From positions 1-40,219 of IMG/VR virus record IMGVR_UViG_3300022932_000010: 40,219 nt of DNA. One strand, written 5' to 3'. Below the pieces are notes generated by a model. It was not told the origin of the DNA, did no database searches, and saw only the letters and a program-made list of their open reading frames with translations. Of the stretch, positions 7,099 to 40,219 are shown one piece after another (the first letter of the stretch is position 1; the number at the start of each line of letters is the position of its first letter). The DNA is from a virus. The translations under genes were made by a program, and so were the position numbers.

Positions 7099-7151
7099 CA
7101 GATTTGTGTCCCGCCATCCCCGATGTTGAGGCCGCCCCAATCTTCGGTCAT
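7098..7151 (-). CDS. 17-residue micro-ORF between terminase and next gene
   Basis: ATG shares a base with the terminase stop (TGATG at 7149-7153) and its TGA shares a base with the next ATG (TGATG at 7096-7100). The peptide is MTEDWGGLNIGDGGTQI, Gly-rich. The exact coupling at both ends suggests it is translated, either as a real micro-protein or as a bridge that carries ribosomes from terminase to the next gene. Confidence 0.5.
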   Translation of the reverse strand: MTEDWGGLNIGDGGTQI

Positions 7152-8446
7152 CAGTAAAACCCCGCATCTTCCGCTTTTTCGCGCAGCCGACTATACCGAT
7201 CAATCGGTTTTGGTTCTAGTGCTGTCACGCCCGGCTTACCAGCACGCCTAAGACCCTCCAAAGCATAGCGCAAGGCGTCAATGGTGTGGTTGTCCTTGTC
7301 CTCAAGGAAAGGCAGGATTTCATCGGTCTGTTTGTCGATCTTGTACGAGAACTCAGACACCTCGCGAATGACGTTCACGCAGCGAGGATGAATAACGATC
7401 TCGAAAGACTGTAGGAAGCTGATGCCGTCTTCAATCGAGCCGGGGCCTTTGACGGCGGGGATGATCTTGGGGAAGCCGTTGCGACGCATGTAGCTGACGG
7501 TCTCGGGGCGTGCGGAGTCGGCGGTGATGCGGAAGTCTCGTGAGCGCGGAACAGTGTCGAATAGTGCGGGAGTCTTGTCGATGTCGCACCCGACCTCATA
7601 GGCCTCGTAGTCCACGAACAAGCAGCGCCCAGCCGGATCAGCGATAGCCCTGTCGCCATCCATGCGGCCGATAAAACCGCGCACCAGGGTCGTCGGGTCG
7701 ATGGAGAAGCCCCAGTCCCCCCCGAACCGGAACACGGCCTCCACAGGGCTCTCAAAGGCCTGTATGCGGTAGTTCCTGAACACCTTGGCCTCTGTGCGGC
7801 CTGCGTAGGCTCCTAGCCAAACGTGAGCGTACTTGTCGGGGTCAGTGCGCTTGTCCCGCTCCATGTCCCCCTGCAAGGCAGAGCCCGCGAACCAGGGGTT
7901 ATCGCTGTAGTTGGCGTGAACCAGAACGAAATCGGGATCATCCTTGTTCGCCTCAAAGAACGTCTCAATTGGGTCGCTTGCCTTGTCGGGGTTCCACGAA
8001 AAGCGAAGCTTTGCACCCGGAACGCGGAAGGTCGGGACGGCAATGTCCAGCGACTTCTGGCTAATTGTCTGCGCTTCTTCCACGAACGCTCTATTGAAGC
8101 CCTCAAGGGACTTGATAGAGCTTACAGTGTGATTCCTAAGACCCTTGAAGACCATAAGGCTGTCATTCGGCCCGACAATCTCATTCTCTGTAATCTTGAA
8201 AAGGCTTTCGACGCCTAGCTTCCTGATCTTGTCTTCGATCAATTGCTTGACGGAATCTTTGATACTGTTCTGCACTTCGCGAAGACACGCAACGCGCACA
8301 TGCTCGTAGCAGCTTTCCTCGACTAACTGCTCACAAAAGAAGTGAGACTTTCCCGAGCCGCGCCCACCTCTTGCTCCGAAATATCGGGCATCGGTTTTCA
8401 GGAGGGGCAGAAAGACGCGGGGGGTCTCAATCTGTAGGACGGTCAC
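7151..8446 (-). CDS. terL: terminase large subunit
   Basis: The 431-residue packaging motor has an N-terminal ATPase with Walker A GARGGRGSGKSH (residues 24-35) and Walker B AFVEEAQ (120-126), and a C-terminal RNase H-like nuclease with acidic residues in GGDWGFSID (about 243-251), ITADSARPE and HTIDALRYAL. The pattern is that of the PBSX/Terminase_3 group. It cuts and translocates DNA into the prohead. GTG start overlaps the preceding stop as GTGA. Small terminase lies one gene upstream. Confidence 0.95.
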   Translation of the reverse strand: MTVLQIETPRVFLPLLKTDARYFGARGGRGSGKSHFFCEQLVEESCYEHVRVACLREVQNSIKDSVKQLIEDKIRKLGVESLFKITENEIVGPNDSLMVFKGLRNHTVSSIKSLEGFNRAFVEEAQTISQKSLDIAVPTFRVPGAKLRFSWNPDKASDPIETFFEANKDDPDFVLVHANYSDNPWFAGSALQGDMERDKRTDPDKYAHVWLGAYAGRTEAKVFRNYRIQAFESPVEAVFRFGGDWGFSIDPTTLVRGFIGRMDGDRAIADPAGRCLFVDYEAYEVGCDIDKTPALFDTVPRSRDFRITADSARPETVSYMRRNGFPKIIPAVKGPGSIEDGISFLQSFEIVIHPRCVNVIREVSEFSYKIDKQTDEILPFLEDKDNHTIDALRYALEGLRRAGKPGVTALEPKPIDRYSRLREKAEDAGFY

Positions 8447-15132: not shown

Positions 15133-15681
15133 TCAGCCGAACGGGATTGGGTCGTCTAAAACCCCCTTCGACCGCTGCGACCTCTCAACCACCTTAGCGC
15201 CAGGCCATGTCTCTTTCGCTTGACGCACGATCTCCGGCAGATGGTCGATAGCCCGCGCGACCTCATCGAGCGTCCAGACGTTCAACGCCCGCCCATCCTG
15301 AATAACCTTCGACGCCTCGGCGTTCGTCCGAACGATGCAGGCAATCGACCCGTCATCAAGCACCGCCTCCCAGATGTCCGGTTCGGTGGACTTGTGGCCT
15401 GCGTCGCGCGCCGACTTGTCGAGCGCCAGCCAAGCCCGCTCCATTCCGCCCGCCGTCTTCTCGACGGCCTCAAGCTGGTCGCGGGTCAGCATCTTCGCTT
15501 CGTAAGCCGACTCCAGGGCTTCCCTGAACCGCGCGCCCTGCCGCATGAACTTAGCGCGCATGTCAGTGTCCACGAGCATCGGGAGCCGCCCGATCCCCCA
15601 TGTCGCCTCAGCCTCGCTCGCCGCCTTGTCCACGCCCATGATGTGCGCCTGTATCGTCGCTGCGTCTTCGGGGGTTGGCAT
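15133..15681 (-). CDS. hypothetical protein beside the repeat region, 182 aa
   Basis: ATG at 15679-15681 with AAAGGA upstream. Mostly helical, mixed charge (LTRDQLEAVEKTAGGMERAW), then a small domain with DIWEAVLDDGSIACIVRTNA and basic C-terminal residues. The leading segment from 15723 is not used. It is the first gene downstream of the iteron-like repeats, so a replication role is possible, but no family is recognised. Confidence 0.75.
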   Translation of the reverse strand: MPTPEDAATIQAHIMGVDKAASEAEATWGIGRLPMLVDTDMRAKFMRQGARFREALESAYEAKMLTRDQLEAVEKTAGGMERAWLALDKSARDAGHKSTEPDIWEAVLDDGSIACIVRTNAEASKVIQDGRALNVWTLDEVARAIDHLPEIVRQAKETWPGAKVVERSQRSKGVLDDPIPFG

Positions 15682-15739
15682 ATCTTTAGTCCTTTCAAAA
15701 TGGGGCGGCGGCGCAGGCCCCATAGGGCCAAGCCGCCAA

Positions 15740-15780
15740 GCCCCTACGTAGTAGGGGCGTGCGCGCCCGCGCGCGCATAC
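15740..15780. other. perfect hairpin and alternating GC tract
   Basis: GCCCCTAC-GTA-GTAGGGGC (15740-15758) is a perfect eight-bp stem with a three-base loop. It is followed by GTGCGCGCCCGCGCGCGCAT, an alternating purine-pyrimidine tract able to adopt left-handed DNA. No U run follows on either strand, so it is not a standard terminator. It lies between the 15681 gene and the iteron-like cluster. Confidence 0.7.
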
Positions 15781-15819
15781 GAGGGGAACCTATTGTTTTT
15801 GCTTATAAAGTGCGGTCTT

Positions 15820-15952
15820 ACTGCACTGTTCAGTGCGATCAGTGCGATGATCCCAGATTTCTGTTTGTTTTCATAAGCTTGACCACAGTGCAGTGCACTG
15901 AAACCGCACTCACTGCACTGTTTTTGGCCCATCAGTGCAGTAACACTGCACT
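15820..15952. repeat. iteron-like cluster, candidate replication origin
   Basis: At least ten copies of the AGTGC/GCACT core lie within about 130 bp: ACTGCACTG at 15820, two tandem CAGTGCGAT (15831-15848), CAGTGCAGTGCACTG (15886-15900, including palindrome CAGTGCACTG), CGCACT and CACTGCACTG (15904-15920), CAGTGCAG (15933) and ACACTGCACT (15943). They sit just after the primase/helicase gene, in a non-coding stretch of about 300 bp (15682-15982) with AT-rich patches at 15791-15808 and 15856-15880. This is the layout of an iteron origin, or of a multi-site operator. Confidence 0.65.
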
Positions 15953-15982
15953 TTGCCTTTGAAATCAAAGACATGACCTTTT

Positions 15983-18397
15983 TCATATGCATCGGTAGCC
16001 CCTTTTCCCATTGCTGGCTCCCGACTTTACCTTGCCGTCCTCGATGCACTCCCTGACGGCTTGTCTGGCAATCATCGGCTTGTATCCGGCGTGCATTAGG
16101 TCGGTCACCAGGGCCTTGTGAATGAACCGATCATGGTCCTTTCTGTCGTTGTAAGGCGACCCCGAATCCCACTTGCGACCGATCATGGCGACGGCCTCAC
16201 GAACTGCGCCCCAGAGCAGTGCGTCATCGTCTTTCACGTCATCGGACGCGTGGAGGACGCCGTTTTCATAGAAGAGACGCACGCCGGTTTCGTCGCCGCT
16301 CTTGGCGTAGTTGGCCTTGCCTCGCGTCAGCAACCGTTCGTCGCCTGCGCCCTCTTCAGGCCGCGTAAGATACATTCTGGACCGGACGGCATTGTTCCAT
16401 GCCGTAGAGCCGCTGTAGCCGCTCCCTGACGCCTTCCCTGCGACGGACGGGTGGCCGAGCAGAAGAACCGTCAATGGCTCCCCTGCGGCCTTTCTCGCGG
16501 CGATCAGGCCGCCAAGCACGACCTTTACGAAGTAGTTGACCTGAACCCGGTCGATCTCGTTGCCGCCGTAGAAATCCGCCAGCGTGTCTAGGACGACAAG
16601 CGAAGGGCCTTTTTCGTTGATCTGCTGAATCAGCTTTTCAGCAAACGGGCCTAGCGTCGCCCGGCCGTCCCGATCCCAGCGGACAAGGACGTTATCGAAG
16701 CCGACGCGAGGCCAGAGCCAGACATCATCAAACGGATTGCCGACTGCGTAGCCCATGGACGACTTGATGTCGTTATGCCTGCGGTGCAGCTCACCCTCAT
16801 CGTCCTCGCACAGCACGGCAAGGACAGAACCCTGAATCGTCGGCATTCCCAGCCACGTCGCGCCCATAGAGACACAGCAAGCCAACTGCTGCGCCAAAAG
16901 CGTCTTGCCTAGGCCACCATCACCGTAAAGGCTGTTTACGGCTCCCTCGACAATCCAATCCTCGACCACCCACCGCCGCGCGGGCGGTTCGCCGTGAAAC
17001 GCAGACGCCTGGATAGGGCCGGGCTCAAACTCCTGAACCGGATCGGTCGTCGCTGTTTCAGCCGACATCGCCGCGATAGCTTCCGAAGGCGCGACGTATG
17101 GCTCCTCCGGCTTTTTTCGCGCCTCCTGTCGCCGTTCGGCTACGGCTTTCGCCTCCGCTTCACCAACGCCCGTGTTGACGCTGAACAATCCGACCTTGGC
17201 GAGCCTGCCGGTCTCCAGGCGGCGGATCGTGTTCGTGGCCCGCGCCATGAGCTGCTGTTGACCGGCTGGCGATGTCCACCGCCCATCCTTGTTATCGACC
17301 TTGCGCGGATCGCTGAACTCGACAAAGGCGGCGTCGAATATCTCTTGCGGCGTCGGATCGCAGCCGGTGCTTTCCTGATAGTCCGCCAAATGGCGCAGCA
17401 GCATGTTGCGGAACTCAGACTCCCGCCCGTCTACAACGCGCCCGGTCCAGTCACGCACGATCTCGCCAGACGCGCCGCTCTGACGCTCTGTCTGAGCCAT
17501 ACGTGTAGCCGGTGCGGGTTCCAACCCCTTAAGGCGTTCGATGTCCGTGGGGCGCGCGTCAGCCTTGATCGCAACCGACGTGGTTTCAGTGCAGTATCCT
17601 TTGGCCTGTTTCTTGTCGTGCGGATAGGCGACCGTCCCGCCCAGGCGCATGATCCGAGCGCCATCCTTGACCTTGAAATCTGCGCCCGTGTGGACCACGA
17701 GCGCGGCGAAGGCGTGGACGAAATCAGCCTCGCTATCAACCGGCTCAAGCAGCCGTGCCCAATGCTGCGACCGACGCTCAGGCACAAGGCCGGTCGTGAC
17801 GACTAGGCCGTCATCGCACACCGCAGCCATGGCCGCCCGCGTGGCGTCGTAATCCTCGTCAATGTCGATAGGGACCGCCGTTGCAGCGTAGAAGTATTCT
17901 CCCCGCGCCCGACCATTGCGAGGCGTGTCGGGAAGCTTGAGGGCCGCTGCGATATAGACGTTGACGCCGCTGTCGCTCTTTTCGGCTGCGAACGCGACCG
18001 CCTCGTCAATCTCGCTGAAGTCAAACAGCTTCGCCCCGTTGCACCCTCCAGGCGGCACGTCGTAAGCGATCTCAAAAAGGGCGTCGCCGTAGTCGCCAAG
18101 CGCGGGCTCAATCAACCACTCGATATGACGGCGGATGTCCTCGCGGTTCGTGGTACGCGGCTTGTCGGGCAGCCCTGTTACGCTGACCTGGGCCAGAGCA
18201 GCGGCGGTTGTCTGACTGACTACCCCTCCGGCAACGGCAATGCCGTAAGCGCCCGTCTCCAGACCCAGCGACGAAAAGTGGCGCTTAAGGTCGTTCTGGA
18301 GCCAGCCCCGCGCCTTGGCGTCGGCAACTTCCGACTTGACGGCTTCGATAGTCAGCGCGTCCAGCGCTCGGCTCGCGTCGTTTGATTCCGACATCAT
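15983..18397 (-). CDS. primase/helicase fusion (primase-polymerase-like plus RepA/AAA ATPase)
   Basis: 804 residues. The N-terminal third has AVPIDIDEDYD (DxD at 178-180), RSQHWARLL (H212) and VHTGADFKVKDG (D240), the spaced motifs of archaeo-eukaryotic-type primases. The C-terminal half is a RecA-like ATPase with Walker A GDGGLGKT (492-499), an acidic ALCEDDEGE-type strand, Walker B SLVVLDTLADF (599-607) and GHPSVAGKASGSGYSGSTAW, as in RepA-like hexameric helicases. It would open the origin and prime synthesis; no DNA polymerase gene is seen, so host polymerase is probably used. ATG at 18397 or 18394 (TGATG with the preceding HTH stop). Confidence 0.88.
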   Translation of the reverse strand: MMSESNDASRALDALTIEAVKSEVADAKARGWLQNDLKRHFSSLGLETGAYGIAVAGGVVSQTTAAALAQVSVTGLPDKPRTTNREDIRRHIEWLIEPALGDYGDALFEIAYDVPPGGCNGAKLFDFSEIDEAVAFAAEKSDSGVNVYIAAALKLPDTPRNGRARGEYFYAATAVPIDIDEDYDATRAAMAAVCDDGLVVTTGLVPERRSQHWARLLEPVDSEADFVHAFAALVVHTGADFKVKDGARIMRLGGTVAYPHDKKQAKGYCTETTSVAIKADARPTDIERLKGLEPAPATRMAQTERQSGASGEIVRDWTGRVVDGRESEFRNMLLRHLADYQESTGCDPTPQEIFDAAFVEFSDPRKVDNKDGRWTSPAGQQQLMARATNTIRRLETGRLAKVGLFSVNTGVGEAEAKAVAERRQEARKKPEEPYVAPSEAIAAMSAETATTDPVQEFEPGPIQASAFHGEPPARRWVVEDWIVEGAVNSLYGDGGLGKTLLAQQLACCVSMGATWLGMPTIQGSVLAVLCEDDEGELHRRHNDIKSSMGYAVGNPFDDVWLWPRVGFDNVLVRWDRDGRATLGPFAEKLIQQINEKGPSLVVLDTLADFYGGNEIDRVQVNYFVKVVLGGLIAARKAAGEPLTVLLLGHPSVAGKASGSGYSGSTAWNNAVRSRMYLTRPEEGAGDERLLTRGKANYAKSGDETGVRLFYENGVLHASDDVKDDDALLWGAVREAVAMIGRKWDSGSPYNDRKDHDRFIHKALVTDLMHAGYKPMIARQAVRECIEDGKVKSGASNGKRGYRCI

Positions 18398-18570
18398 TGA
18401 CGCCCCCGGCGCTGATCAAGAAGGAGTTGGATAGCTTTTGCGGCGGGGCCAGAAGGCCCTCTCGCCGCGTAGGCTTGTGCGGTGCGAGGCGAGACCCCAA
18501 GCCAGTTACCGGCCGCGATCTGCGTCCAGCCGAGTTGGGCTAGCGCGGCTTTGTATTCGGAGGGGGTCAA
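18394..18570 (-). CDS. small HTH protein with TTG start, 58 aa
   Basis: TTG at 18568-18570 overlaps the upstream stop as TTGA; a TAG in frame four codons upstream excludes an earlier start. The peptide YKAALAQLGWTQIAAGNWLG and VSPRTAQAYAARGPSGPAA has the helix-turn-helix pattern of small phage DNA-binding proteins (ALaqLGwtQ..aa.wLGVs.rTaq.y). It ends at the primase/helicase start. A role in origin recognition or autoregulation is inferred. Confidence 0.7.
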   Translation of the reverse strand: MTPSEYKAALAQLGWTQIAAGNWLGVSPRTAQAYAARGPSGPAAKAIQLLLDQRRGRQ

Positions 18571-39907: not shown

Positions 39908-40219
39908 TTAAGCCTCCACCGCCCACATATGCAGAGTGATCGCGGATGGCGTGGGATTGATCGACAAAGCGCCCAGCAGAACGCCGAGAAGGCCTGACGA
40001 CACGCGGTTAATCTGGAAAGTGCAGGAGGAATTTCCGGGTGTTCCAACCACTTGCACATTGAACAGATCGGTGTTTCCGGGGGCTACCTGAGCGATGGCG
40101 TTAACCATGGGAGAGACACCGGGCGCAAAGGTCGTCGGGTATGTCCAGACGTAGGTTGACGCGGCCGGAATGGCTGCGACCATACGGCGGGTCTTGCTGG
40201 CGTGCGTATGATCGGCTGT
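39908..40219 (-). CDS. virion protein with YAxxDHTH motif, 3' part (split by window edge)
   Basis: This is the C-terminal part of the gene that starts at 271. The apparent start at 40183 is an internal Met (TRRMVAAIP) and not the true start, because the frame stays open upstream through the circle junction. The C-terminal half looks like a beta-rich domain (NVQVVGTPGNSSCTFQINRV). The gp10-like gene begins inside its last codons: the GGTGGAGG that encodes its C terminus is also the ribosome site of that gene. Confidence 0.8.
   Translation of the reverse strand, partial: TADHTHASKTRRMVAAIPAASTYVWTYPTTFAPGVSPMVNAIAQVAPGNTDLFNVQVVGTPGNSSCTFQINRVSSGLLGVLLGALSINPTPSAITLHMWAVEA
40093..40219. repeat. 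terminal direct repeat, right copy
   Basis: Identical to bases 1-127. It should be counted once in the closed genome. It lies within the minus-strand virion gene that continues from 271 down to 1 and then to 39908. Confidence 0.95.

Follow-up and report, generated by a model that had tools for sequence, protein, structure and literature searches.

We propose that a cluster of short repeats directly beyond a primase/helicase gene is the replication origin of this phage, with the helicase encoded next to it acting as the initiator. Sequence comparison and predicted structures together lead us to give this reading a probability of roughly 0.78. The cluster lies in a non-coding gap of the window, by which we mean the whole stretch of 40,219 nucleotides analysed here. 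An origin is the best explanation for it, as the initial annotation had suggested, since the cluster is unique in the genome, adjoins the replication gene and recurs 3′ of related helicase genes. The annotation had also named a 58-residue HTH protein as a possible ligand, and this part of its reading was not supported. The features of the region are given below, where L numbers refer to the loci used for comparison.

15133-15681, minus strand: next gene, not proposed as a repeat binder; a related gene lies near the cluster in L002-L007
15682-15982 (301 bp), unstranded: non-coding gap 3′ of the helicase gene, contains the candidate origin in full; identity to L007 about 81%
15707-15737, unstranded: third hairpin, around GGCCCTATGGGGCC
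15740-15758, unstranded: hairpin CCCCTAC-TAC-GTAGGGG; in many relatives the repeats are followed by a C-rich hairpin or a CCCCATACCCC motif
15760-15777, unstranded: GC-rich hairpin TGCGCGCGCGGGCGCGCA
15809-15827, unstranded: 19-bp dyad AGTGCGGT-CTT-ACTGCACT; place and spacing the same in L007
15831-15848, plus strand: two tandem CAGTGCGAT units
15886-15920, unstranded: composite site of overlapping CAGTGCAGTGCACTG, the dyad AGTGCACT-GAA-ACCGCACT (15892-15910, one mismatch) and CACTGCACTG
15934-15952, unstranded: 19-bp dyad AGTGCAGT-AAC-ACTGCACT; spacing of 125 bp to the dyad at 15809, likewise in L007
15957-15970, unstranded: AT-rich dyad CTTTGAAATCAAAG
15983-18397, minus strand: primase/helicase, with a weakly AEP-like N-terminal part, a RepA-type (AAA_25) core and a C-terminal winged helix
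15986-16228, minus strand: winged helix (C-terminal 81 residues), proposed repeat ligand from predicted structure and covariation
18394-18570, minus strand: 58-residue HTH-like ORF, ligand role not supported

The CAGTGC/GCACTG cluster described in the initial annotation is real. Eight exact cores lie within 116 bp (15823-15938) and AGTGC occurs 11 times, a density beyond that of 50 first-order Markov simulations of the genome, in which the densest cluster of any 6-mer held 4-6 copies against the eight CAGTGC per 125 bp seen here. The word itself is not over-represented, with 21 copies genome-wide against approximately 25 expected, and it is the clustering that is unusual. The palindrome CAGTGCACTG was found again at 15891-15900, as were the two tandem CAGTGCGAT units, at 15831 and 15840. 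A better description of the unit is the 8-bp AGTGCRGT, which occurs in both orientations at ten positions in 144 bp. Allowing two mismatches to AGTGCAGT, a 160-bp stretch holds 11 sites at these 10 positions, where 0.25 would be expected from the rest of the genome. The repeats, called iteron-like in the initial annotation, are mainly opposed half-sites and dyads rather than direct iterons of the classical kind. The 19-bp dyad AGTGCRGT-N3-ACYGCACT (up to three mismatches) occurs three times in the window, always within the gap, and the repeat score of the cluster region was equalled nowhere among 785 other windows of 300 bp, bearing out the claim that it is the only one of its kind. A single GGTTTCAGTGCAGT at 17582-17604, within the helicase gene, matches 15883-15905 of the cluster in inverse orientation. 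That the cluster is a chance or low-complexity artefact has a negligible probability: the lack of genome-wide enrichment of CAGTGC alone would fit such an explanation, but the local density, together with the conservation in L007 and the recurrence across loci described below, contradicts it.

The stretch is non-coding by position, lying between the gene at 15983-18397 and the next gene, which starts at 15681, and is partly AT-rich, at 52% G+C compared with 59% genome-wide. Three hairpins (z -3.4) fold in the GC-rich part beyond the sites. We found no Rfam match in the gap and no tRNA in the window. Between 4 and 25 kb the GC skew declines evenly, and no turning point coincides with the cluster. 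An identical 127-nt terminal direct repeat (1-127 and 40093-40219) indicates that the contig probably represents a whole genome in circularly permuted form.

Scanning viral contigs for the 19-bp dyad identified L007, a fragment of 7.6 kb that encodes a helicase 73% identical to that of the window. It contains two exact dyads, 125 bp apart as in the window, and nine of the ten window site positions recur in it at the same distance from the helicase stop codon (31, 42, 64, 84, 89, 135, 144, 156 and 167 nt). Over 178 ungapped nucleotides the two clusters are 82% identical, whereas third codon positions of the neighbouring helicase gene are 44% identical and its fourfold-degenerate sites 35%. Identity over the whole gap is approximately 81%, compared with 70% in the helicase gene and 64% in the next gene, and it rises to 92% in the GC-rich hairpin part. 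The cluster is under strong constraint between the two phages, as judged from its 82% identity while the fourfold sites of the helicase gene have fallen to 35%. A search of viral contigs for the exact GC-rich hairpin matched L007 only, and megablast of the window region against phages gave no match. Eight further contigs (L008-L015), each with a single 19-bp dyad, had no helicase match, and their dyads look like unrelated hairpins.

We also gathered relatives of the helicase, from genomes as well as viral contigs and for the most part alphaproteobacterial, giving 51 distinct loci, and scored repeats in the 300 bp 3′ of each helicase gene, a score of at least 3.7 counting as a pass. A cluster lies directly 3′ of the helicase gene in 36 of the 51 loci; the passing score was also reached by 24 of 408 other windows and by 3 of 48 gene-start windows. 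These counts are to be read in the light of scoring and thresholds set after the loci had been seen, and of loci that are not independent. With a stricter score the numbers were 29 of 51 against 2 of 408. Among the 25 loci fetched before any look at their 3′ regions, 15 passed, and in two more (L057 and L058) a cluster lies 200-500 nt past the helicase stop. In these two, seven CTTCCACC copies surround a C-rich hairpin, several of them making one large palindrome. At the sensitivity used, at least 13 of the 51 loci have no cluster.

The repeat itself differs between loci. In L002-L005 (46% identity) a quite different sequence, TGTGGGCG, occupies the same place, and the unit is GCGGAAGT in Chelatococcus, TTCCAACC in Inquilinus and others, GTGCATC in Rhodopseudomonas and CGCAAACT in Methylobacterium. 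Conservation of the repeats wherever the replication genes occur, which the initial annotation had named as a check, thus applies to sequence among close relatives only, but to the presence and place of the cluster widely. Many loci consist of little more than a helicase of about 400 residues and the repeats.

Two further elements recur in these regions. No more than 330 bp past the helicase stop, 24 of the 51 loci have a C-rich element, either CCCCATACCCC or a CCCCTA..TAGGGG hairpin, against 4 of 1144 other windows, and the window carries the hairpin form (15740-15758). We also noted a CCCCC(T)ATACCCCC element common to 3′ regions beside otherwise unrelated repeats (L035, L038, L040, L041, L062, L063, L066, L068, L072, L075, L076, L080 and L083). 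TTGAWWTMA elements, similar to CTTTGAAATCAAAG, occur in 11 of the 51 3′ regions against 11 of 910 other windows. Such an AT-rich, CATTGAWWTCATTG-like element lies among the repeats in L024, L035-L038, L044, L045, L047 and L076 and at 15957-15970 of the window, and could be a host-factor or melting site.

Repeats of this kind might instead form the operator of a transcription repressor controlling the promoter of the downstream genes. The neighbouring genes are on the minus strand, which makes the gap a natural promoter place for the next gene, and the 19-bp dyads resemble repressor operators. An operator would be expected to accompany the genes it controls, yet the clusters go with the helicase gene and the gene after them varies, 25 of the 36 loci sharing no downstream ORF with any other locus. 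In addition, no sigma-70-like promoter was found in 15500-16100, and the dyad occurs nowhere else in the genome. We consider an operator function in place of an origin distinctly unlikely, while noting that operator and origin can coincide at one site. Clustered dyads are also typical of parS-like sites, and the cluster could in principle serve partition or packaging, as a centromere-like or pac site. This is very improbable: no ParB_N match was found in the window (the control was detected in 11 of 14 genomes), approximately 7 kb separate the cluster from the terminase gene (7151-8446), and across the family it is the helicase gene that the place of the cluster tracks.

Similar arrangements extend to more distant AAA_25/RepA relatives. 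In Wolbachia phage WO (KX522565.1, L085 4285-4530) eight AGTTGGCA/AAGATGGCA-type sites directly follow the RepA gene, with a repeat score of 6.35 against a maximum of 4.35 elsewhere, and from their sequence we regard these sites as an origin candidate. As in our phage, a RepA-type helicase is followed directly by repeats, but the primase part is TOPRIM-like rather than AEP-like and the repeat sequence is another. The passages that a keyword search brought up in a 2022 survey of phage WO (PMC9203015) contained no phage origin. Alteromonas phage PB15 (L092 4045-4330), whose primase part is TOPRIM-like as in phage WO, has eleven TGGTTCAC-type sites directly after its TOPRIM-RepA helicase gene. 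In plasmid pSULKU02 (L091 4369-4700) ten CCTAATAC-type repeats lie after the gene that follows the AAA_25/DnaB-N helicase gene. No cluster was found after the helicase gene of two other distant AAA_25 relatives, corynephage BFK20 (gp43) and the Rhabdochlamydia plasmids, and therefore the rule of 3′ repeats does not cover all AAA_25 helicases. A search for plasmids with the helicase type of the window as sole replicase found none.

The primase/helicase matches Pfam AAA_25 with an E value of 1.6e-33. A predicted model of residues 435-804 (pLDDT 85) has RSF1010 RepA (1g8y) as its best structural match, with a Z score of 25.6 and 2.6 Å over 226 residues. By both measures, AAA_25 in Pfam and RSF1010 RepA in structure, the domain falls outside the D5/SF3-type helicases. 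The C-terminal 81 residues are predicted to form a winged helix (pLDDT 96, from 35 aligned sequences). In VIA/Foldseek its structural neighbours are mostly winged-helix domains of no one clear family, the best being the winged helix of archaeal Rpa2 (Z 8.3); the P4 alpha domain was absent from these winged-helix lists, an absence that excludes nothing. The N-terminal 430 residues bear a weak likeness to AEP-type primases (PrimPol, PDB 6zp9, E 0.016). PF16793 (RepB primase) gave a weak match in one relative (E 0.089) and none in the window, while the relative L036 has a clear Prim-Pol domain in the N-terminal place (E 1.3e-40). These matches weakly suggest that the N-terminal part is an archaeo-eukaryotic-type primase.

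We infer that the helicase binds the repeats through its own C-terminal winged helix. If it does so, winged helix and repeats should change together. Across 36 loci the covariation of repeat and winged-helix similarity was modest (Spearman 0.19, Mantel p 0.0004), with many members only distantly similar and close pairs (window/L007, L042/L043 and L044/L046) carrying much of it. In a partial test given the helicase core, which allows for relatedness only roughly and in part, the value was 0.17 (p 0.0006); given the winged helix, the helicase core added little (0.09), its term falling just short of significance (p 0.058). The locus whose repeat was most similar ranked on average 8th of 35 in winged-helix similarity, against 17th by permutation, where the lowest of 2000 values was 10.7.

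It is also conceivable that the cluster is an origin whose sites bind some other protein, of phage or host, such as an HTH protein. In both the window and L007 the helicase gene is immediately preceded by a gene for an HTH-like protein, and in pSULKU02 a separate binder is suggested because the repeats follow the second gene and not the helicase gene; the 302-residue protein encoded there, before the repeats, has no Pfam match and may be an iteron binder. A tblastn search with the 58-residue protein of the window (18394-18570), however, gave no match at E values up to 1 in L007, where the repeats are the same, nor in any other locus of the set at the same threshold. The L007 gene in this place encodes a different HTH protein of 124 residues, not homologous to it by tblastn and with only a partial match elsewhere in the window. 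The many loci that offer only the helicase of about 400 residues also speak against a separate binder, as does the covariation with the helicase winged helix. A binder other than the helicase thus appears unlikely. On the strength of the covariation, and of the HTH protein having no tblastn homologue in L007, we prefer the winged helix of the helicase as the putative ligand.

In RSF1010, RepA is the helicase that is loaded for replication at an iteron origin. The phage resembles RSF1010 (IncQ; RepA, RepB', RepC, oriV) in its RepA helicase fold and in having iterons, and the hairpins beside the phage repeats are comparable to the RSF1010 ssiA/ssiB hairpins, which lie next to the iterons (PMC4234260). 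In RSF1010, however, the tasks are split over three proteins, primase and iteron binder being separate, whereas in the phage one protein would carry the helicase, the AEP-like part and the winged helix. The phage sites also differ in being 8 bp long and in both orientations. The PF06504 (RepC) profile gave no match in the window and none in the control either, and Rep_3 gave no match.

P4 alpha has an SF3 helicase. The predicted C-terminal winged helix of the phage protein is a feature in common with P4 alpha and pRN1 ORF904, although the phage helicase is not SF3. P4 alpha is a primase-helicase whose winged helix binds origin repeats (PMC4234260). It differs further in its TOPRIM primase, that of the phage being weakly AEP-like. 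In pRN1 ORF904 and Bordetella phage BIP-1/BPP-1 an AEP primase, a helicase and a C-terminal winged helix are combined, with an essential region downstream of the gene (PMC4234260). Here the helicase is again SF3, and what lies downstream is a long stem-loop instead of iterons. The pRN1 protein, of comparable layout, showed no specific binding in vitro (PMC4234260), which counts against reading the phage helicase as the binder. A parallel in layout is offered by SaPI Rep and SCCmec Cch2, in which the C-terminal domain recognises iterons directly downstream of its own gene, in vitro in the case of Cch2 (PMC7581432). In the phage, too, several short repeats come directly after the helicase gene, and the helicase carries a C-terminal domain of DNA-binding type, in its case a predicted winged helix. 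Unlike these proteins, which belong to a D5/SF3-like helicase line, the phage protein has the RecA-like, AAA_25 fold of RSF1010 RepA. The phage layout would combine the helicase of RSF1010 with the SaPI/P4 way of finding the origin. The layout itself is not new: SaPI Rep, SCCmec Cch2, P4 alpha and pRN1 have it, on helicases of other families. The literature searched, mostly non-subscription papers, held no description of a RepA-type helicase with its own winged helix and 3′ iterons.

We envisage that the winged helices of several helicase subunits would bind the AGTGCRGT sites, the paired 19-bp dyads arranging two sets of subunits. The RepA-type ring could then assemble on the adjacent AT-rich DNA, after which the GC-rich hairpins and the C-rich element would be exposed as single strands. 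On these strands the first primer may be made by the fused AEP-like primase domain or by a host primase, and it would be extended by a host polymerase.

AAA_25 proteins were in 2022 still described as without known function (PMC8965321). We consider it reasonably probable that the helicase belongs to a class of initiators found widely in phages, chiefly those of Alphaproteobacteria but also phage WO. In this class the helicase, of RSF1010-RepA type, would read the origin through a winged helix of its own and would be followed by private iterons. Within such a class the iteron sequence would co-evolve with the winged helix, and the primase part would be freely exchanged (none, Prim-Pol, other AEP-like or TOPRIM). 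If this is true, sequence alone could reveal where many uncultured and temperate phages have their origins, immediately 3′ of the gene for the RepA-type helicase. The family would also offer a natural series of winged-helix/iteron pairs for deriving a recognition code, and a testable origin candidate for Wolbachia phage WO.
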